Source: Candidatus Zixiibacteriota bacterium
Lineage (GTDB): Bacteria; Zixibacteria; MSB-5A5; GN15; JACZUZ01
Direction of reading: 5' to 3'
Assembly: GCA_024280835.1 (NCBI GenBank)
Contig: JAJRPJ010000008.1
Coordinates: forward strand, 209,730-273,729
Length of the DNA stretch: 64,000 nt
Positions 37,038-53,959 of the stretch are shown piece after piece (the first letter of the stretch is position 1; every line of letters starts with the position of its first letter). Under the pieces are notes generated by a model, which did no database searches, was not told where the DNA came from, and saw nothing but the letters and a program-made list of their open reading frames with translations. The position numbers and the translations under genes are program-made.

Positions 37038-38798
37038 TTAGAAGGATCTGACTAGAGAGATATTGCCGCTGGTTTCGTTGAATTCGTTGGCCAAGGGATT
37101 GTCACTGGTGAAGCGGGTGTGATTTACTGCGACAGACAGATTGCCAATTTTATTGAGGGGATATGCACTGCGTAAGTTTAGACGTAACGAAGTGTTTTCG
37201 TTGTCATCGGAGATATTGACAGAGGCGCTGGTTATTAAACGATTTCTCAATGTTCTGTGCCGAAGCGAACCGCCGTAAGTTTTTGTAGTCAGCCAACCTT
37301 TTTCAGATCGACGACTCACCACAGCATTCACATTGGGCGATAGAGTAACACTGGAGCCTAGAGCGATTGAAGAGCGAAGTGTGGCAGTATGTGAATCGAA
37401 CTCAGATTGTTGACGGAGCGTGTTACTCTCGCGTGACGTTTGATAGGTATAGTTCAGACCAACACTTCGGACAACTCCATGACGGAATGAAAACGTGTGT
37501 GCGTTACGAAATATCCAATTGTTGTTTTCCAACAGCGCCAAAGAATCGGTTGCGTCATTAGCCAAGCGCACAAGCGCGACACTGGTAGTGACACTCCATC
37601 TAGCGGCAGGACGATTTGTCAAGGCCAGAGTAAAACGGTTGCGTTTGGTGGTAAAACGTTTTTGCTCTATCAGGTTGTCCTGCTGAAGCGAGCCCTTGAA
37701 ACGCACTTGCGTCTTACGCCCTCGAAATGAAGCTCCAAAACGAACTTGTTTGTAATCCACAGGTAACGAAGCCGTGGCCAGCGAAACATAGCCTGGGCCT
37801 AAGTAACTATAGCCAGCGCTAAACATTACTTTCTTTGTCGCCCGAACTTTCACATCGGTTATGTAACTATAGTCAAACGACGTACTGACATTAGGCGAGA
37901 GCACATTGTTCAAAGCATCTGGAATTTCATCGGCATCCAGAGATGTCGCTCGTCTGTCACGCGTATTGGCGCTACCTGCTAGTTCACCTTTCCATTTAAC
38001 TTTTCCTGACAATGCTGAGAGATTAAAAACAGTTGCCAAAACAACATTTTCTTGCGGCGTAACTGATAGTGGATTCAAAGTTGTATCACCAATAGTGTCA
38101 TTGACTAGCGCCGAATCTCCAATCGGCGCTGACGGCGGGTCATTGATTGAACCTAGCTGATCCCGAGCGCTCAAAGCTATGAAAGTAATGTTTGTCCCTT
38201 TCTGCGAACCCACTCCCAATGACGCTCCATAGATCCTGCGCTCATAGGAACGATTGTTATCAACGGTGGACACCGCTCGATTAGTGACACCACCAATCGC
38301 TTTGAGAGTTATAACCTTTGGAGAAATAGCAAACGATGCGCCACGTATTTTGATACCGTTGATAGTCAATCGTGTATAGTTTTCTGTGAAATCTCCAGCG
38401 TGCGCCTCACCCCATGACCATTTAGGATTAACGCCACCCTGATTCAGCTCCTGCCTACCTGTTGTGTTTTCAGTTGAAAGCAAGAAGTTGAATTTGAAAT
38501 CGAGAGTTTTGTATAGTGAAAGTGTCGGCGAGAATGACAAACGCGCAGTAGATGATGGTCTCCGCCTCTCGCGGCCATCAATACTATATAATTCGCCGAA
38601 GAAATTCAGGGAGCCATGTACAGAGACTGGCGAGACACCGGAGCTTGCCTGTGTACCGCCAGAACTATCTGCGACACTTGGCGCGTCTTGAGCATTTACA
38701 CTAGGCGCAAACAATAGCAACACCAGCGCCAAACAAGTCAACCGCCCAATAGCGCTAGCTGACAATTTGAACACACCATTTTGTTCTGAACTTCTCAT
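37038..38798 (-). CDS. Predicted outer-membrane beta-barrel protein
   Basis: The protein is 586 residues. A signal peptide ends near residue 36 (PSVNAQD). After a Ser/Gly-rich linker come about 500 residues of alternating hydrophobic/polar strands with frequent aromatic girdle residues (for example LDFKFNFLLSTENTT and YKQVRFGASFRGRKTQVRFKG). It ends in a terminal Phe (NISLVRSF), the usual outer-membrane insertion signal. No plug or TonB box is seen. It is the last gene of a three-gene operon, and its ATG overlaps the upstream stop codon (ATGA). It is the obvious candidate for an outer-membrane anchor or export pore for the two large partners. No named family is recognised. Confidence 0.7.
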   Translation of the reverse strand: MRSSEQNGVFKLSASAIGRLTCLALVLLLFAPSVNAQDAPSVADSSGGTQASSGVSPVSVHGSLNFFGELYSIDGRERRRPSSTARLSFSPTLSLYKTLDFKFNFLLSTENTTGRQELNQGGVNPKWSWGEAHAGDFTENYTRLTINGIKIRGASFAISPKVITLKAIGGVTNRAVSTVDNNRSYERRIYGASLGVGSQKGTNITFIALSARDQLGSINDPPSAPIGDSALVNDTIGDTTLNPLSVTPQENVVLATVFNLSALSGKVKWKGELAGSANTRDRRATSLDADEIPDALNNVLSPNVSTSFDYSYITDVKVRATKKVMFSAGYSYLGPGYVSLATASLPVDYKQVRFGASFRGRKTQVRFKGSLQQDNLIEQKRFTTKRNRFTLALTNRPAARWSVTTSVALVRLANDATDSLALLENNNWIFRNAHTFSFRHGVVRSVGLNYTYQTSRESNTLRQQSEFDSHTATLRSSIALGSSVTLSPNVNAVVSRRSEKGWLTTKTYGGSLRHRTLRNRLITSASVNISDDNENTSLRLNLRSAYPLNKIGNLSVAVNHTRFTSDNPLANEFNETSGNISLVRSF

Positions 38799-40918
38799 TT
38801 TGTGAGGACTTCAATTTCACTAGAGCGTAATCCCTCGACGCCATTTGCGCCAACAGCTGAGAGTGAATAATAATATCTTGTTTTGGCGTTAATACTATTG
38901 TCTTGATAACCTGTTTGCTCACGAGGGATTAGCGCACCTGAAATCATTTCGGCGACACCCGAAACAGACCGACGGTAAACACGATAGCCGTCAACATTGT
39001 CTTGGTTGGTGGCATTCCAAACAATACGCACGCTGTCACCATAATTGAGGCAACGGATTCCACCAGGCGGCAACAATGCGCCAACAGCTCTGGTAATAGT
39101 CACGGAATGTGAATACTCACCTTCGACAGCGCCTGAGGTGACAGAGCGGAGAAAATAGTCATACGAACTTCCATAGCCAGTGGCTAACGTGTCAGTGAAG
39201 TGGCCTGTCATAAACAAGACTGGTAAAGAGTTCAAGCGCACTGCGCTGGAATAGTTATTTTCAGGCGCTCGATAGACATTGTAACCGAACACTGAGTTAT
39301 CAGTAGGTGGCAACCAAAAGAGTCGATTGCCATCGATGTCGGCATGACCGAAAAATGACTGTGGAGCCTTGGGAGTTTCGTCGCCCTCCGCCAGAGATGA
39401 ACCAGAGACCGCTTCGGTATAAGGACTATACTGATCGCCAAATGTCACTGAGCGTAGAGCATACATATAAGTTCCGCGCGATGACAAACCATAGGTGGTG
39501 TCCACCCAAGCTGAATCTTGTCGGCCTATTAACTCTGAGACTTGCGTAAAATCGCTCCCCCAACTTCGAGCGCGATAGACATAGTAGCCACGCACTAGAG
39601 AATCTGTGACAATTTGCCAAGCCCATTTCACAGCGCCAGTGTCAGATTCGGTCTGAAGTCCATTGGGCGGCAATGGACGTACTGGGGTGTGGAACATTGC
39701 GATCGCCTGAGCGGACTGACCAGATTCGTTACCTGAGCCATCCAAGGCGGAGACTCGATAATAGTAATCCCTGTGCAAAGTTGCAGTGTAGTCAATGTAA
39801 TAGGCGCTATCACCTGGAGTTGGAGCGCTGTTCATCTGGACAAACATAGAATCGGCGCTCAGACTGCGAAAAATGTTATACCCAACCACATCAGGCTCAG
39901 AAGGTTTATCCCAAGTGACACGAATGCCACTGCGTCCACCGATAGCCATGATGTTTTCTGGTTTTTCTGGGGCGCTATTGTCACGCACTCGCACAGGTTG
40001 CGCAACACGTGGACTCTCATTGCCTGAGTAATCTACAGAAACAACTGAGTAGAAATATGTGCGTTGATTGTAAACGGTTGAATCAACAAAACTCATCTCG
40101 GGCGCTTCGCTATCATCATCACCAAAAACCAAAGCCAAAATATCAGTGCGATTCAAACGCTGAAAATATCCAGCGCTATCAGAAGCGCGATAAACATTAA
40201 AACTAAAGGCTCCCGAGTCATCGGGGTTGGCTGTCCATGTCAAAGTGGCCAGCTCATCATCTGTTTTTACCTGCACAGAAGTTGGCCCAAGTAAATTGAA
40301 CAGCGGTACTCCGACGGTGACTTCGACCGTATCTGTTGGCGTGGATTCGACACCTGCGCTATTGACTTGGGTGCAATAGTAGACATATGTCGAATCAATA
40401 TCGACTAACGTATCTAGAACTAGGTGGCCCATAGATTTTCTAAATGGTTTGAGCAAAAGTTCCAGAGATTGAATACGCTCATCATTGTTGACAATCATAT
40501 TCCACAAATCAGTGGTGTCCTTGGCGCCAATGAATGAGACAATTCCATCGACTCCCTCTTCGGCATAGGCGCGCAATTCTTGGAATGTGCCAATGCGGCT
40601 TAACGGAGCTTCGGTCACACGGACTTGCAGTGTGTCACTCTTAAGACGTCTATATATATGATAACCAATCCATCCGTCATACTTCGCTGCGCTTGATTGA
40701 TGTAAAGCGGGTCCGTCAATCACCAGCATGACACCCGTCGGCGCCGATTGCGCATAGAGTTTGAATTCAGAACCAGATTGCGCGGCGCCGTTCCTTGGAG
40801 CTAGACCAATTGCCAATGTTAACCCCAGCAAAGCAACCAACTGAGCGCCTTTGCGATGAACTCTCTTAAAAGTTGAATTATCTTTTTGCATAGTTTTGGA
40901 CTTAATAGTTGTTCTCAT
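38795..40918 (-). CDS. Secreted fibronectin type III repeat protein
   Basis: The product is 707 residues with a signal peptide (cleavage near APRNGAAQ, about residue 47). It carries about five to six fibronectin type III domains. Their recurrent signatures are WTANPDDSGAFSFNVYR, VTWDKPSEPDVVGYNIFR, LPPTDNSVFGYNVYR and IVWNATNQDNVDGYRVYRR, each followed by a YYY(R/S)xxAxxxxGxEs strand. The N-terminal ~170 residues contain an extra domain that I cannot name. Such proteins act in surface adhesion or binding of polymers. The ATG directly abuts the stop codon of the giant upstream gene, and the stop overlaps the barrel gene, so all three are translated as a unit. Confidence 0.82.
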   Translation of the reverse strand: MRTTIKSKTMQKDNSTFKRVHRKGAQLVALLGLTLAIGLAPRNGAAQSGSEFKLYAQSAPTGVMLVIDGPALHQSSAAKYDGWIGYHIYRRLKSDTLQVRVTEAPLSRIGTFQELRAYAEEGVDGIVSFIGAKDTTDLWNMIVNNDERIQSLELLLKPFRKSMGHLVLDTLVDIDSTYVYYCTQVNSAGVESTPTDTVEVTVGVPLFNLLGPTSVQVKTDDELATLTWTANPDDSGAFSFNVYRASDSAGYFQRLNRTDILALVFGDDDSEAPEMSFVDSTVYNQRTYFYSVVSVDYSGNESPRVAQPVRVRDNSAPEKPENIMAIGGRSGIRVTWDKPSEPDVVGYNIFRSLSADSMFVQMNSAPTPGDSAYYIDYTATLHRDYYYRVSALDGSGNESGQSAQAIAMFHTPVRPLPPNGLQTESDTGAVKWAWQIVTDSLVRGYYVYRARSWGSDFTQVSELIGRQDSAWVDTTYGLSSRGTYMYALRSVTFGDQYSPYTEAVSGSSLAEGDETPKAPQSFFGHADIDGNRLFWLPPTDNSVFGYNVYRAPENNYSSAVRLNSLPVLFMTGHFTDTLATGYGSSYDYFLRSVTSGAVEGEYSHSVTITRAVGALLPPGGIRCLNYGDSVRIVWNATNQDNVDGYRVYRRSVSGVAEMISGALIPREQTGYQDNSINAKTRYYYSLSAVGANGVEGLRSSEIEVLTK

Positions 40919-43900
40919 CTAAAAACTCGCACTGACAGATGTGCCTGAATTACTGGAATATTTCACTTGGGCTTTCAGATTCAGGCAGACTTTTCCGCCA
41001 ATACCACCCCAATAACAAATGCCCCATTTCTTTTTGGAGCAATAACTGCAAACACTCCAACAGTTAGCGTTGCAGCCGCCAACTTTCGCCTCGAGACGCG
41101 CATCGGCGGTGCCGCTAGCCCTGAAGCCATAGGAATCATTCGCCAAGTTCGCAGTTAGAGAAAAGCCGCCTGAAGCTCGAAGTTCACCGAAGACATTGAA
41201 GTCCACATATCCGTAGGCGCTGGCGTTAACACCCACACCACCTTCAACTGTTCCATCCCAACCACCCATCAGGTAGCCATGCTGGCCGAGTGCGACTCCC
41301 CAGCCAATGTTGCCCCATTGACCGTCGAATGAGACATTCCTCTGCAAATCTACAATGTAACCATTTATGCGCCGTGACTCTCCGCGATAGAAGAAGTCCC
41401 AATTTTCAGCAAAAACTATCAGGCCATTAGCTGTGAAGAATTGCAAGAAGTTTGCATTGGCTCGGCCGTGCACAAACCAATACTTGCCGAACTTTGCACC
41501 GATATCTATTTGGCCATTGATAACCAATGGGCCTTTGCTGTATTCCATAGTGATTGCGCCATCGAAACGAGACTTCGGCAAATCGAGTTTGAACCAAGCG
41601 TGTCCTAAAGCCAGCGCTCCTCCCCCAACCGAGGCGTCACCTTCACCGTAGATAATTATACCTTCGGGTGTGCGGTAGACATCGACAAGAATATCCAACG
41701 CGACACTCTTCTCTGATGTGGCTGGCGCGAATGTCCCTCCAAGCGAGAAGCGCCAAGTGTCACCATTTCGCCCAACACCTCCTGAGGCATTGACTAACAT
41801 AGCAACTCCACCCAGAGGAATCCGTGTACCGCTAGTGACTTTTATCCACCAATTGGTACTGCCACCATATCTAAACTCGGCGCCGGCGCTAAAGGCTGGA
41901 CGCACGTTTAGCAGTCCTTCGCCCTCAAAGAGTGTATCTGACCAGCGTATTCTAAACTGCGCTTCAGTTGGCCCCGCAAAGAACCCGAAACCGATTTCAT
42001 CAACAGTCACTTTGCTATTGCGATAAAAACGAAGATTGCCCACTTGGGCGTTCAAGCCTTTGATAGCGCCAAGACGCACACCGCCTGTGATACCCACAAA
42101 CTTATCCCCAGCTTCGCTGGTATCAAAAACCAGCTCTTCCAGCGACAAAGCGAAGACACTTTTCATAGTCATGGTTTGGTTAAAACCAATTACGCCATAA
42201 ACTTCATCGTCTTCGGTGTACTTCAAGTTCTGGAAAGTAATAGGCTTATCCAGCGCCGCCATATTCAACTTGCCCGTGAATGCGAAGTATTGTTTGTTGG
42301 CAACTGTATCAATATCCCAATTGTCTGTGCCGAATGTAATCTCTTCGATGTCAAAACTTTGCCCATAGAGTTCAACTCTGGCATTGTCACCCTCGGCGGT
42401 GACAGTTGCCGAAAGGAAATCACCCTTGGATGAAACGTGCAAATCCTTCAAGCCAAACTCTCGGCCCCCCAGACGTGTCATTTCAATTGAGCCGTTGACC
42501 CAAATACCTGTATTGTTCCAAGTTGTTGAGCTGTCATAAACAGTAAAAGCATACAACGGAATCTTAACCGCTGGCTCTGTCAGTATTGTTATAGCTTTGA
42601 GTCGCAGGTCATCATTCTCATCATTGCCAATGAGCAAGTTTTCCATGCCGAGTTTGAATTTCTCACCGAACATCAATGAACCATAGAAATGGAATCCAGC
42701 TGTGTCGATAGTGGTCTTGGTGTAATCAATTGCTAGTGTCACACCTTTTAGCTTTGCTCGAACTTCTGTATCGGTTGCTGTAATTCCAAACCGTTGCAAA
42801 CCTCTATTGACTCCATCAGACCAGAACGACGGCGCCTTCGTTTGCGGGATAGTCATATCTGACATGAACGTCTCAGGGAAGAGCATTGTAGTCTGATCCC
42901 AGAGGGTAATTGCGCCACCTAGACGACCAACTCCCAATGAATCCAGCCACTCTAATTCCAAACCACTTGAATCACTCAACACACCACTGAAGTTGAAGAG
43001 ATTAACTTCAAGCTCGTTGCTTGCCAAACGAATCTTTGATTTGGTTGGTTTTAGATTCGAATCTAGCTCTACTTTTTCAAAGCGAATCTGTGCGGTAGAA
43101 TCGCTTGGAGCTAGGCCAAATGTACTTTTGATATTTGTGATAGCGCCAGTGACATATTTCTTACTACCGACAGTCCACAGTGAATCAAGGACAATCGGGA
43201 ATCCAAACAGCGAATCCAGCGGTGATGACTCCAATGTGATACTTACATTCTGGATATGGTCTCCAGCTTTGACTGACCAATTCTTATTAAGACGACCAAC
43301 CTTGTAGCCAGCTTTGATGGCCACCAAAGTCAGTGGCGTTCCTACTGGAATATTTTTCAGAACAAACTTGCCACGCTTATCAGTCTTCGCGGTAATACCT
43401 TTTGTGCCTTCAACAGTGATAACCACCGCGGCTATGGCTTTGGCGCTATCTTTGCTTTTGACTGTTCCGCTAAGGCGAGCGCCAGGAACCATCTCAACTA
43501 CCAACTCAGAGGTTCCAACACTGCGCTTCACTGACACTGTTGTTGAAAATGGAACAAAATCTTTGTCGAATGTTTCTGATTTCGGAACAGTGACTTTTAA
43601 CTCCTGATGTCCAATATCAACTCCGTCAAAAACAACACGTCCATTAAAATCAGTGGTCTTGGACGGATTCTTAGCTAAAGTGACTGTCATACTCGGCAGA
43701 GCTTTGCCAGTGGACTTATCCACGACGCGCACGCGATAGCGACCAGTGAACTTTTGGAGTGTGATTTCAACTTCGGTGGTGTCAGCATTGCGTACCATCA
43801 CCGAGATTGTGTCGTCTTGGTGATGGAACGAAGAGAAGAACAACGACAGTTCTCCGAGTGGCATATCTGACAGCAAGAACTTTCCAGAATTATCGGTAGT

Positions 43901-46597
43901 GACGAAAATCGGTAAGTCGTCGGATTTGACATATGCGTTCCGCAGTGTATCACCGTTTGACGATTTGATAATACCTGAGATATAGCCTTTGCCCTTCGGC
44001 TCGAGCAGAGAAACTGTAATCCGCTGTCCATTGATAACTACAAATTCTGGCCCTAGTATCAAGCGCTTGCTAGGCGTCATCGCTGTGATCCAATATGTGC
44101 CAGGCGTAACCTCATCGAAACCATAGGCGCCATCACCACCAGTTTCAGCGACTTCCACTGGATACATCATAGTGTCACCGCCACCAAATGGTGAAATCTG
44201 CCATTTCCACAGAGCAACCTTGGCCATCGGCGTCCCTGAGCCATCCTGCCCAGAGATTATTCCATGGACAAACCCACCACGCGGACGCAATTCAAAATTG
44301 ACCTGTTTACGTTGCCCGTGTTCCGAAATTCGTGCCTCAGCCATAGCTCCATGATGATAATCCGAGGTCACACGCAAGACATAATGCTCAGCCTCTTGCT
44401 CACTGTCATTGATCGGAATATTCGGCATTGTGAAGGAACCATCAGGCCCAGAGACAGCAACATCCAGCGGCTCGCCATAAATAGCATCTGTTTGTCCGCC
44501 CCAAGCTCCAGAATCAACAGGAGTTGCTGTTGTGTCATTGGCTGAAGATGAATCGACACTGCCTAGCTTTGGTATCCAACTATATAGCGCAACACGTGCG
44601 CCCTCAACTGGCGCATCTTCGCTTCTCACGATACCTGCAATAGTAGCTGTTTTGGCGTCTAGTGTATGCTCTCCCGTCTCTGTGAGAGTTCCAGCTGAGA
44701 CCGACAGCTCATCTGACAAATAAGTAAGAAAACGCCTGTCGTTGACAGTCAGGCGCAATGCTGGCTGACTGACAGAGACGATTTCTTGCCGAGTACGTCT
44801 AATACCACTGCTCGTTGAACTCAAATCAATATCGACATCAACAGTTGTTGAAACATTGTCGAATCGAAACTGACCATCCGCTTTAGAATATACTGATCGT
44901 ATGCTAGCGCCATCTACTCGGATGACTTCGTCTGTTGAACCCCGTGAAAACTTTCGCCCGAAAATCACAATCTCCGATGTCGTCCTGACAGTTACATCAG
45001 TTGAAATTGAAAGCTCAACAATAGCGCCTTCCACTGGAACCTGAGAACCGCCCAAGACGTTGGTCATAAGAGTACCTGTAATCGCTGCCGACTTAGGTTT
45101 TAACAGCAGAATGAAATTATCTATGTCCCCCTCTTGGTAGGCCTGAGATTGTTTGGGGGTTGTGGCGAAATGTGTTTCACTTCCAGGAACAGACAAACCG
45201 AAATAGGTAGAGTTCCTCGCATTGGTGAATGTGAATTCGCCTTTATCATTGGCCACTGTATGAAGCGAGGGGCCGATTGTAACCCATTTGCGCGTGATAG
45301 ATGAAATACCAAATCTATTCGATCGCGTATTGACCCTCAACTTACGAGCCTGATAGGTGAGAGCTACATTCGGAACTGGTTCATCGGTAAGCAAATCACG
45401 TACAACTCCTGCAAGAAGCTGATAACCTGGCGGCGAAAGAAGTAGGCGAAATTCTCCGCCGCGCATGTTTCCAGCAAGAAAGTATTTTGAGCCAACAAAT
45501 TTTCTAGTATCGTGGGCGAAGGCGCTGATTATTAGCTCATAGTATGATTCATCTTTGAGGTCGCTAAAAGTGAACACACCAGTTCCCGAACTTCTGACAA
45601 CAGTCGGCTCTGGCGCCCGACTCCAAGTTGTATCAGAGCCAGAGACTTCCATCTCAATCTCACGGTATCTAACGATGGCATTACCCAACGGATTCCCACT
45701 GGCGCTGTCGCGAATAATACCACTCAGCGAAGCTGGCTCTGGGGGTGTGGTCGTATCAGCGTCATAGATGAATGTCCAGAATTCACTCTTGCCGTTATTA
45801 GATGTTGGAGGATAACCATTGTCATCAAGCGCCTGAATCTGCCAGACATAAAGTTTGTCTTTGATTAGTGGTAACGCATATAGTGGATACTGCAAACTAA
45901 CCCCAAACAAAGCAGGCTCTTCATGCAGTGGCACATTGGCATTGAGCGCATGCGACGGCGCCTGCCCCTCAAAGACTTCGGCTAATCGAAAAGTGTAGTG
46001 AACGGGAAAACCTACTGGAGCCTGAACAGGTGTCCATTGGAAAGTCGGGAAAAGATCAACGACAGTATCAGCATCATTGGGGAAAATGAGATATGGTGGA
46101 TCAGGAAAAACTATCGTGAAAGTAGCGCAAATATCTGTCAACAAGACAATATCATTTTGATCGCGCAATTCTAGGCAAATCGTATACTCACCCTCTGGTA
46201 AACGACCTGTGCGGACAGCTATGTCCTTAATACTACTACTATAATCGACTGTCTTATAGTCCACCATATCTGGAGTCGCGATATCCTGAAAGCTACCCGG
46301 TGGAAAGAAAAACAAGCCGCTATTGGCAGTTAACAGAACACCACGGCGACTTTCTGTGATAGTAGCAAAGAAGCGCACCTGAAGAGTCACACCACTATCA
46401 TTGGTGGCTGAGATAGAGCCAATAGATGGGTTGGATTCCCAATCAGAGAGATAGGGCGATGGGAAAGGGTCAATAAAGACGCTAGCGGTAATCCCTGTTT
46501 GTGCGCTGGCGTTAGATGCGCCCCCAGCAAGAAATAGAGCGGCGACAATAGATACTATATACATTATGCTGAGTATTTTAGTAGAACGACGATTCAT
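40919..46597 (-). CDS. Giant surface protein with carboxypeptidase-regulatory-like modules
   Basis: The protein is 1892 residues from the ATG at 46597; a start 19 codons earlier would bury the signal peptide. After the signal (about 1-33) come two beta-sandwich domains (about 35-270; SNPSIGSISATNDSGV, and later PTFQWTPVQAP) resembling N-terminal regions of Bacteroidota surface proteins. About eight CarboxypepD_reg-like modules follow (about 285-1140). Each opens with G(I/V)(I/V)-type strands such as SLSGIIRDSASGNPLGNA and RLSGTVKSKDSAKAIAAV. The remaining ~730 residues form a highly repetitive beta-strand region, ending in a cysteine cluster (CNANCWSVCSYC) and a terminal Phe. The 3' genes encode an FN3 protein and an outer-membrane barrel. 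I infer a surface-exposed or outer-membrane-embedded structure; its function is unknown. Confidence 0.82.
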   Translation of the reverse strand: MNRRSTKILSIMYIVSIVAALFLAGGASNASAQTGITASVFIDPFPSPYLSDWESNPSIGSISATNDSGVTLQVRFFATITESRRGVLLTANSGLFFFPPGSFQDIATPDMVDYKTVDYSSSIKDIAVRTGRLPEGEYTICLELRDQNDIVLLTDICATFTIVFPDPPYLIFPNDADTVVDLFPTFQWTPVQAPVGFPVHYTFRLAEVFEGQAPSHALNANVPLHEEPALFGVSLQYPLYALPLIKDKLYVWQIQALDDNGYPPTSNNGKSEFWTFIYDADTTTPPEPASLSGIIRDSASGNPLGNAIVRYREIEMEVSGSDTTWSRAPEPTVVRSSGTGVFTFSDLKDESYYELIISAFAHDTRKFVGSKYFLAGNMRGGEFRLLLSPPGYQLLAGVVRDLLTDEPVPNVALTYQARKLRVNTRSNRFGISSITRKWVTIGPSLHTVANDKGEFTFTNARNSTYFGLSVPGSETHFATTPKQSQAYQEGDIDNFILLLKPKSAAITGTLMTNVLGGSQVPVEGAIVELSISTDVTVRTTSEIVIFGRKFSRGSTDEVIRVDGASIRSVYSKADGQFRFDNVSTTVDVDIDLSSTSSGIRRTRQEIVSVSQPALRLTVNDRRFLTYLSDELSVSAGTLTETGEHTLDAKTATIAGIVRSEDAPVEGARVALYSWIPKLGSVDSSSANDTTATPVDSGAWGGQTDAIYGEPLDVAVSGPDGSFTMPNIPINDSEQEAEHYVLRVTSDYHHGAMAEARISEHGQRKQVNFELRPRGGFVHGIISGQDGSGTPMAKVALWKWQISPFGGGDTMMYPVEVAETGGDGAYGFDEVTPGTYWITAMTPSKRLILGPEFVVINGQRITVSLLEPKGKGYISGIIKSSNGDTLRNAYVKSDDLPIFVTTDNSGKFLLSDMPLGELSLFFSSFHHQDDTISVMVRNADTTEVEITLQKFTGRYRVRVVDKSTGKALPSMTVTLAKNPSKTTDFNGRVVFDGVDIGHQELKVTVPKSETFDKDFVPFSTTVSVKRSVGTSELVVEMVPGARLSGTVKSKDSAKAIAAVVITVEGTKGITAKTDKRGKFVLKNIPVGTPLTLVAIKAGYKVGRLNKNWSVKAGDHIQNVSITLESSPLDSLFGFPIVLDSLWTVGSKKYVTGAITNIKSTFGLAPSDSTAQIRFEKVELDSNLKPTKSKIRLASNELEVNLFNFSGVLSDSSGLELEWLDSLGVGRLGGAITLWDQTTMLFPETFMSDMTIPQTKAPSFWSDGVNRGLQRFGITATDTEVRAKLKGVTLAIDYTKTTIDTAGFHFYGSLMFGEKFKLGMENLLIGNDENDDLRLKAITILTEPAVKIPLYAFTVYDSSTTWNNTGIWVNGSIEMTRLGGREFGLKDLHVSSKGDFLSATVTAEGDNARVELYGQSFDIEEITFGTDNWDIDTVANKQYFAFTGKLNMAALDKPITFQNLKYTEDDEVYGVIGFNQTMTMKSVFALSLEELVFDTSEAGDKFVGITGGVRLGAIKGLNAQVGNLRFYRNSKVTVDEIGFGFFAGPTEAQFRIRWSDTLFEGEGLLNVRPAFSAGAEFRYGGSTNWWIKVTSGTRIPLGGVAMLVNASGGVGRNGDTWRFSLGGTFAPATSEKSVALDILVDVYRTPEGIIIYGEGDASVGGGALALGHAWFKLDLPKSRFDGAITMEYSKGPLVINGQIDIGAKFGKYWFVHGRANANFLQFFTANGLIVFAENWDFFYRGESRRINGYIVDLQRNVSFDGQWGNIGWGVALGQHGYLMGGWDGTVEGGVGVNASAYGYVDFNVFGELRASGGFSLTANLANDSYGFRASGTADARLEAKVGGCNANCWSVCSYCSKKKWGICYWGGIGGKVCLNLKAQVKYSSNSGTSVSASF

Positions 46598-46931
46598 AGG
46601 TAAGACCGCAATCAAGGTTCCGAATCTTTGATAGGAGTCTATGAACACACTCACTTACGAGATATCTCCAGCCTAAATGTTTGAAGTTCAGTAGTGTAGA
46701 ACATTCGATAGCCTTGTTGACTCCTAATTGGCGAGAGTAAAATGCGGACTGAAGTAGTACATGTCAAGTCACATGATTTGCCTCCGAAACGCTCTGCGTG
46801 ACCAAAAAATGAGTATGCTGCAGTATAAGTAAAGGCCTCGACATGGAAACGTGAGTCTCCAAGCCGAGGCCTTTGAGAAGGGATAATGCTCTAAATCAAG
46901 TACAAATATTATCGCAACTTCATTCGTGGCT
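46598..46931. other. Spacer between the two surface operons
   Basis: It holds a terminator-like inverted repeat (46831-46874) that serves the PorV-like gene, and upstream sequence for the giant operon. TTGACA on the minus strand at 46768-46763 is a possible -35 box, but the -10 is poor. No gene was found. Confidence 0.55.
46831..46874 (-). terminator. Terminator of the TonB/PorV operon
   Basis: A perfect 10-bp inverted repeat, AAAGGCCTCG and CGAGGCCTTT, has a 24-base loop and ends in TTTACTT on the minus strand. It lies 57 bases after the stop of the PorV-like gene. The T-tract is weak, so efficiency is uncertain. Confidence 0.65.
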
Positions 46932-47930
46932 CTAGAAGAGAACCTTACCAGTGAACATTACGTCACTTTCAAAGAATTCTGCTTCGCGCCAGGCGGCTTC
47001 AAACGTGAAACGTGTTTCAGCAATTTCCACGTTGATACCACCACCGACCGAGAGACCATACTGATAGTCTTTTTGATCGCTGTAATTGTACGCTCCGCGA
47101 ACGAAGTACTTATCGTCATAGCCGTATTCAAATGCGCCAATCCAGAGGTCACGACTAAAGTTGTTCGACTGGAAGTTCCCCATGAATGAGAACTGGTGCT
47201 CATTGTCAGTTGGCGGTGAGAACTTAATGCCTAGATTAACAAAACTAGGTAGTTCCGCCGCCGCATTCAAGGGACGTACAGAACGCGGACCAAGGTCCTC
47301 GTCCTGACGATCAAAGCCACGACCGCTGTACTTGATTGACGGACCAACGTTCTTAATCACCATACCCAATTGCACTCCATGCCACTGCGGCTCAAACATG
47401 AACCCAATATCGAATGCAAAGCTATTGGCCGAAACTTGAGCAATGCGCTCATTGATGAAGTTGGCGGTGATTCCGAAGTTAACCTTGTCAGTCATTTGAC
47501 GTGAGAATGTCAAACCAACCACTGAAAGTGTCGGGCTAAATGTCACGCCCGTACCTTCTGGCTGGGCTTCGGTTGTTTCTTGAATGCTACCAATATCAAC
47601 AAACTTTCCAGAAAATGCGAAAGTTCCGAGATCGCTAACTTGGGTAGAAGCCCCGATAAAGTTCACTGTGATATCCGCAAAATACGGCATGTTCATGAAC
47701 ATCACTTCGGTTCCATCCTGACGGCTAACACCAGCGGGATTCCAAAACGTGGCTTCAACGCCCGTAACATCGGCGATAACACCTCCGCCAAGCGCAAACC
47801 CTCGCGCTCCGACGGGAATCAATAGTTCTTGTCCGCCGGCCGAGCCAACTCGCAAAGAACTTCCCGCAAACGCGCTCGACGCTACCAACAGCGCGGACAT
47901 CGCCACGAGACTTAGTTTTATTTTATTCAT
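46932..47930 (-). CDS. PorV/PorQ-family outer-membrane protein
   Basis: The product is 332 residues from the ATG at 47930, with GAGGAG nine bases upstream. The signal peptide ends at AFAGSS. The start of the mature part, AGGQELLIPVGARGFALGGG followed by GVEATFWNPAGVSR, is the classical opening of PorV/PorQ and related FadL-like 14-strand barrels. It ends in a terminal Phe (MFTGKVLF). In Bacteroidota, PorV shuttles T9SS cargo to the cell surface. Here it follows a TonB-dependent receptor gene and a large secreted protein gene with a T9SS-like C-terminus, which supports a similar role. Confidence 0.85.
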   Translation of the reverse strand: MNKIKLSLVAMSALLVASSAFAGSSLRVGSAGGQELLIPVGARGFALGGGVIADVTGVEATFWNPAGVSRQDGTEVMFMNMPYFADITVNFIGASTQVSDLGTFAFSGKFVDIGSIQETTEAQPEGTGVTFSPTLSVVGLTFSRQMTDKVNFGITANFINERIAQVSANSFAFDIGFMFEPQWHGVQLGMVIKNVGPSIKYSGRGFDRQDEDLGPRSVRPLNAAAELPSFVNLGIKFSPPTDNEHQFSFMGNFQSNNFSRDLWIGAFEYGYDDKYFVRGAYNYSDQKDYQYGLSVGGGINVEIAETRFTFEAAWREAEFFESDVMFTGKVLF

Positions 47931-47951
47931 TACTATATGTCTCCTCAATCC

Positions 47952-50900
47952 TTAGAAGTTCTGCAATTGTTCGGCTTCGGTAAAGATCGCCATCTTGCCG
48001 ATCTTCTCTGCGCCACTCGGGGTTGTCACTATATAAATATAAATACCAGAGGCAACAGGCAGACCATTATCGGTCTCTGTATCCCACGTAATCCAAGACT
48101 GCACCGCATCATCTTTTTCAAACGTTCTTACTAGCTCACCACTGAGACTAAAGAGACGAACTGTACATTTGTCTGGCAGATTGGTAAAACGAATCTGTCT
48201 TTGGAACTGACTAGATTCATACTCTGCAAAGAGATAATACGGATTCGGAACTACATTGACTCGACTGAGGTCAGCGTCACCCAAAGTTGCAGAAATAGTC
48301 GGCGCATTCGGTGTGAATGTGAACACATCCGTTGGTGAGTTAACTAGGTTCGGTGTTAGAGTTAAGATACACTCCTCGGCAAGCTGCCCACGCGATGAAC
48401 CACGTTCATCCATCCAAAGCACCCACATTCCGTCTTCAACAGCGCCGCCAGCGCCCGCCCAGAAATCAATCGTACCACCCGTTCCGTCACCATACATGGT
48501 TCCAGATGGGTCATAAGTCGAATTGAGTATCCAAGTGTAATTGAAGCGTTGGTCGCCACCATTTGGTAGCGCCGCATCCATCGTTTCTTCACTCAGATTC
48601 CATGCAAAGTCAGCGTCTCTGTCGCGAATTACGACATTTAGCTGACGCGGACTACCTGGAATACTGACGTCCCAAGCAGTGAAAGGAACATCAAAAAATC
48701 CCTCAAAAGAGGCGCCGCTAAAGCCCTGATACATAAACGCCTTTTGCGTTTGTGCAGGGTCATCGACGACATACGGCTCACCTACAGTATACGAGCCATC
48801 ACTATTGAGGTCAGTGTATGAGGCCATAGGACGGAAACGAACCTCGACCGTCTTATAGTCAGCGGCTCCAAGTGTTGTGGCGCCCCAGAAATTCGGCTCC
48901 ATATAAATACCACCAAAGAGCAACTCACCACCAGATTGTCCATCGGCTGTGAACCAACGTGAACCACCAGCATAACCGTTGTCAGCTATTGCAACAGGGC
49001 TTATGTTCAACGGACTAGCGCTAGCGTAGTTGAAACTCTTGCCTTGGAGAGGCGGGCCGGAAACTTTCACCTGTAATCCTTCGACGACTGCATAAAGCTC
49101 GTCGTTAGATTGATTTGTCTGACCTGCGAGCAGAGTCGTGGAAGTTGTGTTGTTCACCAAGTTCCAAACAATCCCTAGTATTGAGTCATTCACAAAAACT
49201 ACCGAATAACTGTCGCCTGTCAGCGCTACTGGATCAACAACGATTGGCGTAACTGAACCATCAGATGGACCAGTGTGAGTCACAGCTAGGGAATCATTGC
49301 CAGAGCTATTAACGATAGTTCCAGCGCGTGTTCCTTGCGGGGTCACTCCAACAACTGTTGAAGCAGTCAAAGTCTTTGGTGTTTGTGTTGGGTCAAGTGT
49401 GTAGGCCTCAACACGGAACCAATAGTCAGTAATGTTATTTAGACGTCCACCTTTGAGGGCGTCCTGAGTAATTGACATCTTACGGTTAATTCCGCCGTCA
49501 TTACCCAATTGCACTGGCTTGCTGACAACCAATCCGCTTTCAAGATCAAATTCGTCATCAAAAACGATAGCGTTTCCATCATTCACATCAGTCGTCCGAA
49601 GACGTTTCCAAGGACCTGTCGGAGACTCGCCTTGATAAACAGTGTAGCCTTGGAAGGGGTAGGTTCCATTGTTCATTTCTGACTCTGGTCCCCAAGACAG
49701 CACTACCTCATTCGACAATTCACTGACTTGAATAACAGGTGGATCTGGCTGAACTGGCAGATTAAAGAACAGTTCATAGGCTGACTGAGCGAACTTATCG
49801 TAGAACTTCATCAACGAAATCGAAGTCAAACGGTCAATCGCTTGGCCAACAATAACCGCCGCGATAATTTCTGTGCTATCACCTGGACGGAAAGTAATCG
49901 GTCCAGTCGAAAGCATGAAACGACGATCCGATGGATCTGAATCAATAAATCCAGTTCCTGTAGTTGGGTCACCATTTCCATAGAAGTTAGTTGGTGAACC
50001 AGTGGTTGGGTCAATCAACGCTCCACCAGTCTTATCGAGACCTGTCATAAAGCCATAGGTCTCGGTACGATTGTTTGGATCGGTTCCGTTGATATACTTA
50101 TTGAATGATACCAATGGTAGATTCTTGAACCCTGCCATCTTCTGGCCCCACATGATAGCGGTGTCTGACAAATCTCCTGTAGAATCCAAAGGACCTTGGA
50201 AGAAGTCAAATCCGACGGCAGGTGGATTTGAGCCATATATTTGATCGCTGTTGTTCGCATTGAACACATAGCCCAACGACAGCTCGATATCACTACCGAC
50301 TAAGTCATCACCAGCGCCACCCAAGTCAGGGTCACTCCAGAGTGAGATATACATATTCTGTAGTGTCTTGTTGCCTTTGTTAATAATCTTATAACGCAGG
50401 AAGAAGATATTTCCTAAGGCATCCTCGCGGTTGAAAGCGAAGGTGGATTGCTGAACCTCAAGACCCAATGGCGCTGTACTACCAGCGTCATTAGTATGCT
50501 TTGAAGGATCGGCGTCATTAAACACCGTCCACACCATTTGATCGCCTGTTAGCAGTGGAAGTCCTGCGCTATCGACAGGCGCTCCATCGGCAACTGGCCA
50601 ATCGAGATAATCCTGATTCGGATTACTAGCCATACTATCTTTATACAATTTGTACGGCCTAAATGTAGCGACATCTGGATCGAAAGTTCCACCAGACATT
50701 GTCCCCGGAGTGAACTCCGAGGAAAACTCTGACATCACGATTAGCGTGTCATTGGCGACAGCCGAATCAATGGCGCCAATCCATAAACCAGCTGCAAAAA
50801 CACAGCTCTTGTTGGCTTGGCCATTGGCGATATTGTTTAACCCAGCGTAGGGATAAACCATTCCACCGCCACCACCGATATTTAGTTGAGCTACAAAATC

Positions 50901-51083
50901 ACGGGCAAAGCCGCCATCGTTAGTTAAATACGAGAAAATCTTATTGGCGTCGATGAAAGCATCCGTTGTTAAACCCGACGAAAATCTCGGCGGTGGATAC
51001 TTATCGTTCCGTGGGGCGCTGCTAACTGCCGAACCGACAATTAGTATCGCGCATGTGAATCCTATTACGTGTTTTAGTTTCAT
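47952..51083 (-). CDS. Large secreted protein with FlgD-Ig-like / type-A sorting C-terminus
   Basis: The protein is 1043 residues from the ATG at 51083, with GGGA just upstream. The signal peptide ends near AVSSAPR. The body is beta-rich with many Asp, Gly and Asn. It includes a block LYKDSMASNPNQDYLDWPVADG and an FN3-like domain (VSELSNEVVLSWGPESEMN, about 440-470). The last ~90 residues fit the FlgD Ig-like/T9SS type A sorting fold: NVVPNPYYLFAEYE, CTVRLFSLSGELVRTFEKD, and PVASGIYIYIVTTPSGAEKIGKM. It is encoded between a TonB-dependent receptor and a PorV-like protein, so I infer it is surface cargo or a surface lid for the receptor. Substrate is unknown. Confidence 0.82.
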   Translation of the reverse strand: MKLKHVIGFTCAILIVGSAVSSAPRNDKYPPPRFSSGLTTDAFIDANKIFSYLTNDGGFARDFVAQLNIGGGGGMVYPYAGLNNIANGQANKSCVFAAGLWIGAIDSAVANDTLIVMSEFSSEFTPGTMSGGTFDPDVATFRPYKLYKDSMASNPNQDYLDWPVADGAPVDSAGLPLLTGDQMVWTVFNDADPSKHTNDAGSTAPLGLEVQQSTFAFNREDALGNIFFLRYKIINKGNKTLQNMYISLWSDPDLGGAGDDLVGSDIELSLGYVFNANNSDQIYGSNPPAVGFDFFQGPLDSTGDLSDTAIMWGQKMAGFKNLPLVSFNKYINGTDPNNRTETYGFMTGLDKTGGALIDPTTGSPTNFYGNGDPTTGTGFIDSDPSDRRFMLSTGPITFRPGDSTEIIAAVIVGQAIDRLTSISLMKFYDKFAQSAYELFFNLPVQPDPPVIQVSELSNEVVLSWGPESEMNNGTYPFQGYTVYQGESPTGPWKRLRTTDVNDGNAIVFDDEFDLESGLVVSKPVQLGNDGGINRKMSITQDALKGGRLNNITDYWFRVEAYTLDPTQTPKTLTASTVVGVTPQGTRAGTIVNSSGNDSLAVTHTGPSDGSVTPIVVDPVALTGDSYSVVFVNDSILGIVWNLVNNTTSTTLLAGQTNQSNDELYAVVEGLQVKVSGPPLQGKSFNYASASPLNISPVAIADNGYAGGSRWFTADGQSGGELLFGGIYMEPNFWGATTLGAADYKTVEVRFRPMASYTDLNSDGSYTVGEPYVVDDPAQTQKAFMYQGFSGASFEGFFDVPFTAWDVSIPGSPRQLNVVIRDRDADFAWNLSEETMDAALPNGGDQRFNYTWILNSTYDPSGTMYGDGTGGTIDFWAGAGGAVEDGMWVLWMDERGSSRGQLAEECILTLTPNLVNSPTDVFTFTPNAPTISATLGDADLSRVNVVPNPYYLFAEYESSQFQRQIRFTNLPDKCTVRLFSLSGELVRTFEKDDAVQSWITWDTETDNGLPVASGIYIYIVTTPSGAEKIGKMAIFTEAEQLQNF

Positions 51084-51130
51084 TGTATTTCCCTTCAAAT
51101 CACCTGTTTTAAATGATTATTCCTTTTGGC

Positions 51131-53959
51131 TTAGAAGAAGAAGTTCATTCCGAACAAAATGATTCTTGGATTCGAAAAGTTTGTTGGGTCATTGGCGCGC
51201 AAGTTGGACAGCTCAGTTCCGTTTTGATTTGCGAAAAGCGCGTCTGGGTTTTGTGTAGCATCGGCAAAAGTTTGACCAGGAGCAGTCGTGAGCCAACCAG
51301 TATTGTCTGGATCGCCTGTGGACTCATAAACAAAGATTGCATTCTTCGTGTCGAGAACATTTTGCACCCAAACATAAGCATTCAACTTTGCGCCAAAAAT
51401 TTTGAACGTCTTATCGGCTTTTAGGTCAATCACCATATTGGTCGCGCCATAAACTGAGTTCACAGGAGCGTTGGCTTCCGGAGAAACAGCCGCTAACGAG
51501 TTCTCATTATAAACAACAGACGGAGTGTATGGCGTGCCACTTGAGAACTTAAATACTGTTGAAACACCAAAGTCTTTCAGGATTGACGAATTTCCACCGA
51601 AGTCACGAACATCAAATGTTCCGACCAGTGTATGTCGTTGGTCATAAGAAAGCGCGCTGGCCTGTATGGGTGCATTTGCCGATGTCCAAGCAACATTACG
51701 CTGGGTTCCTGCAAATGAGCCAGTTCCTGTAGCCGAAGACAAAGTGTACTTGGCTTCAAACCTGACAGCGTGAACGCGACGCATCCTGAGTCCAACTTCC
51801 AAGCCCTTAATTGTGGCGAAATCACCATTTTGATAGATTTCAAATGATTTTGGAGTCGCTGGCTGTGAGACGACTTGAATCAGGTTTGTGATGTCTTTGT
51901 AGAAAGCAGTAACATCAATCGCCGCAAAACCGCTGATTCGACGAGTTATACCCATCTCGTAAGCAGTTGTCCGTTCTGGCTCCAAGTTTGGATTACCGAC
52001 TGGGAAGTAGTAACCAGCATTAACTGTTTTGTACTCAAAATAGTTAAATCCAGTGTAGAGCTTATCAAGGTCAGGACGCTTGAAGAACTTACCAAAGCTA
52101 AAGTGCATACTGGTGATTTCATCAAGTGGAAAGGCAACACCGAGACGTGGTGAAAAATCGCTGATTGTTTTGGCATCAACCAAGTCAACAGCGTCCAAAG
52201 TATTATCACCAGTAGTGCCTAGTGGATTATTCGGATCTACGAATTGTTTCGTTTTATAATCGAAATAGTCATAGCGAATACCCGCCGTCAAAATCATGCC
52301 GTTCCAATCGTACTTGTCCTGTACGTATAACGAAATGCTGATTGGTTTCTTGGCCGCGTCACGACCACCGAAATCACCTTCAACGCCCTTGCCATTGAAG
52401 CCATAGTAGTTAGCGTCCTGCCATTGTGCGGCGGAATCAGTCTTACTAGCGACATTGAATGGAATTATGTGGTTGAAACGGCGTAGTACGTGTTGTTGAA
52501 CATCGAATCCAGCCTTGAACAAATGACCACTCTTGGTTCTTGATGTAATGTCACCCTTACCCTGTTTATAGGTAGAAATACGACGTAAGTATCCACCTAC
52601 TGTTGAACCTGGGTTGTAGAACAGATTCAAATCGACGTTTCCGCTGGTCGGATCACCAGTGAAGACATCGTTGGTATAGCTGGCAAGATCATTCCAAAAC
52701 ACACCATCACCAGTCTCGCGCTCTGTGCGGAAGTATGCTCCAGCGAGAGTGTAGAATGTTGACGGGCTAAGCGTATGTGTCAATCTCGTATGGAAACCAA
52801 AGTTTTGGTCATCATAGCGTCGATTGTGCGCCGAGTTGAACAACTGGGCATGGCTATATCGTTGCCATCTGTCACGCGAGGCGTTACCACCAATTTGCAA
52901 GGATAAATTTGAAGACAACTTAATCTTCGTCTTACCTTGAAACGTCCAGCCGTTTTGAGAGTTATTTGGCAACTGTTTGTCACCACGCAAATTGACGATG
53001 CCGTTGATGGCTTCTCCAGTAATTGGTGATGGTGATCTATCACCAAAGTAATTTCTTTCTCCCGAAACGTAGAATGTTGCGTTCTCAAAGAAAGGCACTG
53101 GGCCACCAAAACTAAGGGCCCCAATATTCTGGTTGAAACCCTTGTCTCCAAGGACATTGTCTGTGACAATTTCAGCTGAGCCACTATAATTCTCACCACC
53201 AGATTTTGTAATAGTGTTAATAATAGCAGCCGAGACAAAACCATACTCTGCTGGGAAACCACCAGTGATGATTGAAACTTCCTCGATGGCATTATTGTTA
53301 ATTGAAGTTGTCGACAGTCCTGAGAGAGGATCCTGCTGCGAGAATCCATCAACAAGGTAAGCGACCGATGATGGACGACCACCACGAATGTTTAGTTCGG
53401 GGCTATTTGTTCCTTCACGGCCACCACGAGCTCGGTTGCCAGAGCTTTGACGGAAGGTTACTACTCCAGTCTGAAGCTGAACGACTTGCTCATAACCACG
53501 TGTCGGCAGGTTTTTAATTTCTGCCGCTGTGACTGTTGAAACTGAAAGGTCACGGCCTCTTTCGACCAATGGTCTCTCAGCGGTAACAGTGACCCCCTCC
53601 AACTTGGTGGTCGCCATTTGCAAACTAGCGTCGTAGTTAGTTGTCTTATCGGTAGAGACAACAATGTTTTTTACCGAAAGAGTTGCAAAACCGACGGATG
53701 AAATTTTCATCTCGTGAGCGCCAACCTCTACTCGCAAAATAAAATATTTTCCTTCGAAGTCAGTGACCCCGCCAAGTTCTGTTCCGACAATTGAAACCGA
53801 TGCGCCGACGATCGGCTCATTGGTGGAACCGTCGATAACTGTACCGGCAATACGTCCCGTGACTCCCGCTTGGGCTGCGCTAGCGCATAGTAACGCTAGC
53901 GTTAACCCGATGAATCCAAGTGTGTTACGAATTCCTTTCACTCGAAACACTCCTTTCAT
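51131..53959 (-). CDS. TonB-dependent outer-membrane receptor with carboxypeptidase-regulatory N-terminus
   Basis: The product is 942 residues. The signal peptide ends at SAAQAG (about residue 32). A CarboxypepD_reg-like domain (about 33-115) contains GRIAGTVIDGSTNEPIVGA. The plug domain (about 135-245) contains LNIRGGRPSSVAYLVDGFSQQD and ITGGFPAEYG. The beta-barrel (about 260-942) ends in LFGMNFFF with a terminal Phe, as in CirA/SusC-type receptors. It imports a substrate in a TonB-dependent manner; ligand is unknown. It heads the operon with the secreted cargo-like protein and the PorV-like protein. A 24-codon frame in front of it (53925-53999) has a good ribosome-binding site and overlaps its start. 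Confidence 0.92.
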   Translation of the reverse strand: MKGVFRVKGIRNTLGFIGLTLALLCASAAQAGVTGRIAGTVIDGSTNEPIVGASVSIVGTELGGVTDFEGKYFILRVEVGAHEMKISSVGFATLSVKNIVVSTDKTTNYDASLQMATTKLEGVTVTAERPLVERGRDLSVSTVTAAEIKNLPTRGYEQVVQLQTGVVTFRQSSGNRARGGREGTNSPELNIRGGRPSSVAYLVDGFSQQDPLSGLSTTSINNNAIEEVSIITGGFPAEYGFVSAAIINTITKSGGENYSGSAEIVTDNVLGDKGFNQNIGALSFGGPVPFFENATFYVSGERNYFGDRSPSPITGEAINGIVNLRGDKQLPNNSQNGWTFQGKTKIKLSSNLSLQIGGNASRDRWQRYSHAQLFNSAHNRRYDDQNFGFHTRLTHTLSPSTFYTLAGAYFRTERETGDGVFWNDLASYTNDVFTGDPTSGNVDLNLFYNPGSTVGGYLRRISTYKQGKGDITSRTKSGHLFKAGFDVQQHVLRRFNHIIPFNVASKTDSAAQWQDANYYGFNGKGVEGDFGGRDAAKKPISISLYVQDKYDWNGMILTAGIRYDYFDYKTKQFVDPNNPLGTTGDNTLDAVDLVDAKTISDFSPRLGVAFPLDEITSMHFSFGKFFKRPDLDKLYTGFNYFEYKTVNAGYYFPVGNPNLEPERTTAYEMGITRRISGFAAIDVTAFYKDITNLIQVVSQPATPKSFEIYQNGDFATIKGLEVGLRMRRVHAVRFEAKYTLSSATGTGSFAGTQRNVAWTSANAPIQASALSYDQRHTLVGTFDVRDFGGNSSILKDFGVSTVFKFSSGTPYTPSVVYNENSLAAVSPEANAPVNSVYGATNMVIDLKADKTFKIFGAKLNAYVWVQNVLDTKNAIFVYESTGDPDNTGWLTTAPGQTFADATQNPDALFANQNGTELSNLRANDPTNFSNPRIILFGMNFFF

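Follow-up and report, generated by a model that had tools for sequence, protein, structure and literature searches.

The closest described relatives of the gene cluster analysed here are found among the polymorphic toxins, a group whose C-termini are variable. TANFOR (TIGR02542) is the signature of a class of such toxins in Bacteroidota (Jana et al. 2020, PMC7073777). The gene neighbours of TANFOR include FN3 proteins, whose enrichment is given in Table 1 of that study, and substrates of the type IX secretion system (T9SS). The same work links TANFOR to T9SS-bearing genomes and offers export of the toxins by T9SS as a hypothesis only; the neighbourhood test in it was built on known domains, and neither barrel nor porin appears as a word in the paper. 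A second point of reference is a Burkholderia biofilm operon that encodes a LysM-FecR protein and a CHASE2 histidine kinase and is without a barrel (PMC5192318).

The locus described here lies in the window, a stretch of 64,000 nucleotides that belongs to a 3.3-Mb Zixibacteria genome, the closest named relative of which is Candidatus Zixiibacteriota Dive100_bin1.56. Reading of the sequence revealed three touching genes on the minus strand between positions 37038 and 46597, in the order giant, FN3 protein and barrel, and an upstream boundary:

40919 to 46597, minus strand: giant exported protein, 1,892 aa from the ATG at 46597 or 1,911 aa from a GTG at 46654
38795 to 40918, minus strand: FN3-array protein (A3 family), 707 aa, with a signal peptide
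37038 to 38798, minus strand: putative outer-membrane beta-barrel (A4 family), 586 aa, with a signal peptide and the C-terminal residues ...SLVRSF
46831 to 46874, minus strand: terminator-like hairpin, the upstream boundary of the trio

The three genes are where the earlier note had placed them, with the start of the giant at the same ATG, and the abutting and overlapping starts and stops that it described are confirmed. The ATG of the FN3 gene (40918) begins at the next base after the stop codon TAG of the giant, and the ATG of the barrel gene overlaps the FN3 stop codon by 4 nt (ATGA, 38795–38798). The hairpin is near perfect, with 19 pairs, a folding energy of −32 kcal/mol and a z of −8.3; it is followed by a T-rich stretch and stands between the giant and an upstream PorV-family gene. 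Scans for promoter and terminator consensus sequences gave counts near chance. Because the hairpin lies upstream, 10 nt separate the barrel gene from the end of a convergent ankyrin gene and the trio alone is shared between the window and a same-genus relative, the transcription unit is most likely the trio. Further upstream, at 46932–53959, lies a separate T9SS-flavoured tandem unit made up of the PorV-family gene, the gene of a 1,048-aa protein whose tail is weakly T9SS-type/FlgD-like, and a TonB receptor gene. These genes were considered as members of the system and rejected, because they are away from the giant in genome G074 and the strong hairpin lies between.

The longest frame of the giant spans 40919–46654 from the GTG, and the Sec signal peptide (MNRRSTKILSIMYIVSIVAALFLAGGASNASA-Q) starts at the ATG at 46597. 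The protein is made up as follows:

46499 to 46597, minus strand: Sec-type signal peptide, read by eye from the sequence
45743 to 46498, minus strand: A1 module, about 250–270 aa, taken as a remote TANFOR domain, with the motifs ...RTGRLPEGxYxxC... and ...NNGKSEIWTF
43205 to 45733, minus strand: eight CarboxypepD_reg-like Ig-fold modules, a spacer and the least conserved segment of the giant, placed with Pfam and by eye
40922 to 43204, minus strand: A2 C-terminal region, about 760 aa, amphipathic and beta-rich, the best conserved segment of the giant, with a final Phe
40985 to 41074, minus strand: six-cysteine cluster near the C-terminus, four positions of which are invariant in the family

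About eight CarboxypepD_reg-like modules had been proposed from the first reading. Visual inspection gives eight, at residues 308, 411, 523, 670, 794, 890, 972 and 1059 in the GTG numbering, and Pfam recognises four stretches (PF13620/PF13715, E 1e-34), so that the count rests partly on inspection. The cysteine cluster is borne out by six cysteines within residues 1861–1890. The A2 region matched no Pfam family and no solved structure. The last 312 or so residues of the giant have the densest alternating strands of all sequences tested, at 5–6 per 100 aa (z 3.2–4.7), in a crude test by which a barrel and a soluble amphipathic sheet are indistinguishable; members of the giant family end in Phe or Trp.

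No toxin domain was found in the giant with Pfam or NCBIfam, and no immunity gene lies downstream of it in the window, where the FN3 and barrel genes are found instead. Comparison with G074 gives identities of mostly 81–93% in the C-terminal region, mostly 76–77% in A1 and 56–68% in the first spacer modules, a pattern that is the opposite of that of a polymorphic toxin. Since its C-terminus is the best conserved part and a toxin domain and an immunity gene are both missing, the giant is no typical toxin.

TANFOR was the sole NCBIfam model that A1 matched repeatedly, in 6 of 15 members and with a best E of 1.2e-5. The A1 module of the window scores 13.5 bits, far under the curated cut-off of 67 bits, and none of the TIGR02542 matches in the 277 Bacteroidota genomes sampled, which are to large proteins (E 5e-9 to 7e-6), exceeds that cut-off either. 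These Bacteroidota TANFOR-type proteins match A1 over its full length (E 2e-33 to 2e-25), and profile–profile alignment of A1 with the Bacteroidota set using HHalign gives 100%, E 2.4e-39. Moreover, relatives of A3 are present in four of four Bacteroidota TANFOR-type clusters and relatives of A4 in three of the four. From a near-complete SprA match, we infer that genome G333 and its group are Bacteroidota. We take A1 and TANFOR to be one homologous module, with A1 a remote branch. The earlier note recognised no described system with this set of genes and is corrected here: the trio has known relatives, since the N-terminal part of the giant is a remote form of TANFOR and its FN3 partner is a known TANFOR neighbour (PMC7073777, Table 1); the part of the trio that had gone unrecognised is the barrel partner.

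Among the Zixibacteria, A1 proteins have at least four unrelated remainders: the 1.9-k type of the giant in the window, a 1.5-k type that stands alone, a 3.9-k type accompanied by genes for FN3, TPR and barrel proteins, and a 1.2-k beta-helix type that adjoins a barrel gene. The second of these, an A1 giant some 1.5 k residues long and lacking any Pfam domain, is seen at G000:C2:525-5009 (L039) and L011:5229-9773, and in G074 it is divergent from the giant of the trio.

The FN3 protein gave no Pfam fn3 match; nevertheless, the assignment made at first reading stands, since the A3 family profile matches the FN3 arrays of titin, fibronectin and other proteins of solved structure (2e-19). The third protein, proposed at the same time to be an outer-membrane barrel, found no match in Pfam, in NCBIfam or among solved structures, and by these searches A4 is an unnamed family for which neither collection has a model; one distant member has a weak OMP_b-brl match. 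The proposal is nevertheless supported by the marks of an outer-membrane barrel that A4 proteins bear, namely a signal peptide, alternating strands and a C-terminal aromatic beta-signal. Strand density exceeds that of shuffled sequences (z 1.2–4.1 across members), and most members end in Phe, the C-termini SLVRSF, GYRYRF, GYTFTF, RFESRF and GYSYKF all having an aromatic residue last. Composition, strand pattern and C-terminal residue thus make A4 barrel-like, and it is probably an outer-membrane beta-barrel. A relationship to SprA was considered and rejected: HHalign gives 29% over barrel strands, a weak and probably generic alignment, and the SprA profile TIGR04189 matched neither the window barrel nor the four relatives scanned against NCBIfam.

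Nine of the 132 Zixibacteria genomes have a match to the giant, in some cases to the N-terminal module only. The order giant, FN3 protein, barrel is complete in G074, G058, G059 and G060, and in G111 and G021 it holds as far as the contigs reach. Two genomes outside the Zixibacteria share both the gene set and its order: G267, where the giant has another C-terminus, and G323, where it has the A2 C-terminus. No relatives were found on viral contigs. The scattering of homologues by which the earlier note proposed to refute its operon was looked for and not seen; the three genes recur side by side in relatives. An operon that joins an exported giant to an outer-membrane barrel is supported, and so is the suggestion, drawn from the zero spacing of the genes, of a single complex. 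The frame of the giant is split in two related MAGs (G058 and G060; L032 and L034), once by a frameshift and once by a single TAG. Gene fission was considered and rejected, because the lesions lie at different sites and are more likely assembly error or decay.

The pairing of A1 with A4 extends well beyond the trio. Of 386 genomes, 20 carry A1, 23 carry A4 and 17 carry the two together (Fisher p 6e-22); among the Zixibacteria, the two are found together in 9 of 132 genomes (p 4e-13). By manual count there are 34 distinct A4 loci, 26 of which encode an A1 protein in the same cluster, and contig ends cut five of the other eight. Three loci with adequate flanks (L132, L136 and L139) are without a detectable A1 gene. 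In a set of 72,556 plasmid records, the barrel search and the TANFOR-type searches returned nearly the same records. Plasmid pEMTOL03 of Emticicia oligotrophica (L162, 8878-19391) encodes a barrel, a 2,719-aa A1 protein that ends in a WHH/HNH nuclease, and a SUKH-type protein. Runella pSP2_2 carries genes for a barrel, a 2,151-aa A1 giant and an FN3 protein in an order unlike that of the trio, and the cysteine-bearing C-terminus of this giant is weakly A2-like (E 1.8e-6, without HHalign support). A Persicobacter cluster likewise consists of barrel, FN3 protein and A1 protein, and in the Bacteroidota clusters generally the gene order differs from that of the window. On a Bergeyella porcorum plasmid (L076), several truncated TANFOR-type modules and a deaminase-domain protein are encoded in tandem, and the same plasmid has a gene for an A4 barrel at another place.

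A1 and A4 also meet in a compact cassette found in several lineages outside the Zixibacteria (L124, L125, L128–L131, L127, L132 and L085). Its genes encode, in order, an A1 protein of about 355–405 aa, a FecR protein of about 225–250 aa, a barrel of about 730–840 aa with an extra N-terminal part, and a CHASE2 protein with an adenylate/guanylate cyclase domain. The FecR gene lies between A1 and A4 at seven loci, and a CHASE2 gene follows A4 directly at at least seven, the cyclase domain being seen in six and one being cut by a contig end. We found no description of the combination A1–FecR–A4–CHASE2 in the literature searched.

Overall, the trio is a non-toxin variant of the TANFOR-type cluster, and the overlooked barrel is the most constant partner. 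The explanation that we favour, with about even confidence, is that the trio represents, in the Zixibacteria, a gene cluster spread over T9SS-bearing lineages and encodes a barrel-docked surface protein that uses the TANFOR platform. What the data show is how the genes are built, that A1 is homologous to TANFOR-type proteins, that A4 is barrel-like and that A1 and A4 are paired in a conserved way. AlphaFold models of the A2 region and of the barrel, limited to two sequences, had a pLDDT of 28–29 and a pTM of 0.2 and gave no usable fold, so that we infer the mechanism: that A1 docks physically on the barrel, that the giant lies at the surface and what its C-terminal domain does there. All three proteins would be exported by Sec and the barrel inserted by BAM; the A1 module of the giant would dock on the barrel, with the FN3 protein bridging the two, and the eight Ig-like modules would form a stalk. 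What this stalk would hold out at the cell surface, as the working part of the protein, is the conserved, amphipathic and disulfide-capped C-terminal domain. Other members have a nuclease at that end, or a free-standing A1 accompanied by FecR and a CHASE2 cyclase.

The strongest alternative is that A4 is a dedicated translocon and A1 its secretion signal, which would amount to two-partner-like export with unrelated parts. There is one barrel per A1 protein and the genes often abut, the Emticicia toxin gene beginning 54 nt and the Runella giant 16 nt after the barrel gene and the A1 and barrel genes of G629 overlapping; the presence of both toxin and non-toxin payloads in the family is also what a secretion signal and its channel would predict. 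However, no POTRA or TPS domain was found, the trio giving no Pfam match to the TpsA haemagglutination domain or to a POTRA-bearing TpsB, and in the compact cassette an A1 protein of some 355 aa has little else beside FecR and the CHASE2 cyclase, so that export of a cargo is not obvious. We prefer docking to pure export because the A1 of the cassette has almost nothing attached; the toxin genes that abut the barrel gene keep export in contention, but we consider it rather unlikely.

A further alternative is that the giant is a type IX substrate, as has been proposed for TANFOR toxins, with the barrel merely an anchor or accessory. The host genome has a homologue of SprA and encodes 47 C-terminal sorting domains of the T9SS, SprA and sorting-domain proteins are present in 17 of 17 carriers tested, and outside the Zixibacteria SprA is found in all 14 A4 carriers as against 68 of 254 genomes (p 3e-9), in line with the link between TANFOR and T9SS genomes in PMC7073777. 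This explanation is nonetheless improbable. None of the three trio proteins has a T9SS C-terminal sorting domain of type A or B (Pfam, NCBIfam), and SprA occurs in 126 of 132 Zixibacteria, most of which are without the trio; SprA therefore marks the lineage and does not show that the giant is exported by T9SS.

The FecR and CHASE2-cyclase genes of the compact cassettes would fit a sensory complex in which the barrel and A1 protein detect an outside cue and signal inwards. Such a role is very improbable for the trio, because neither the window nor the other giant clusters read, by position and size of the genes, have FecR, CHASE2 or a cyclase beside it. Least probable of all, and by our estimate scarcely credible, is that the C-terminus of the giant is itself the membrane part, as an autotransporter-like or TamB-like barrel or amphipathic groove with A4 as a second membrane component, since its dense strands and terminal Phe or Trp would suit a soluble amphipathic sheet equally in the strand test, six clustered cysteines close to the final strands are not what a barrel usually has and Pfam gives no autotransporter or TamB match.

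The docked surface protein thus remains our preferred reading of the trio, and the wider family makes the A4 barrel a strong candidate for the outer-membrane partner of TANFOR-type giants. A barrel family without a model tracks the TANFOR-type module across lineages while payloads and neighbours change, and so provides a testable candidate for the outer-membrane step of TANFOR, with the barrel–nuclease–SUKH cluster of Emticicia pEMTOL03 as a named, culturable test case. The occurrence of the A1–A4 pair beside FecR and CHASE2 cyclases suggests an outer-membrane docking device shared by secretion and signalling. More tentatively, and with the balance somewhat against it, A4 and A1/TANFOR may constitute an undescribed system for export or display at the outer membrane, one that differs from types IX and V and is shared, across T9SS-bearing lineages, by clusters for toxins, structural proteins and signalling.

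Compared with known systems, the trio resembles two-partner secretion and autotransporters (type V) in that a large exported protein is encoded beside a barrel, but it is without a POTRA, haemagglutination-activity or autotransporter domain. Its compact A1–A4 relatives sit with FecR and CHASE2-cyclase genes, as in FecR-CHASE2 operons, whereas the window trio has no such neighbours and the published operon (PMC5192318) has a kinase and no barrel. With T9SS (SprA, PorV) it shares a host that has SprA and many sorting-domain proteins, and a PorV-family gene lies just upstream; the trio proteins nevertheless lack a sorting domain, and the alignment of A4 with SprA (29%) is weak and probably generic. 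From the TANFOR toxins the giant of the window differs in having a conserved C-terminus, neither toxin domain nor immunity gene, a score below the cut-off and a host in the phylum Zixibacteria, and the barrel of the trio goes unmentioned in PMC7073777. It shares with these toxins a homologous N-terminal module, a Sec signal, very large size, FN3 neighbour genes and a T9SS-bearing host, and in Bacteroidota an A4-family barrel adjoins the toxin-type genes too, one of them an HNH-nuclease member that has a SUKH immunity gene. The TANFOR module and its FN3 neighbours were already known (PMC7073777); the new part is the A4 barrel.
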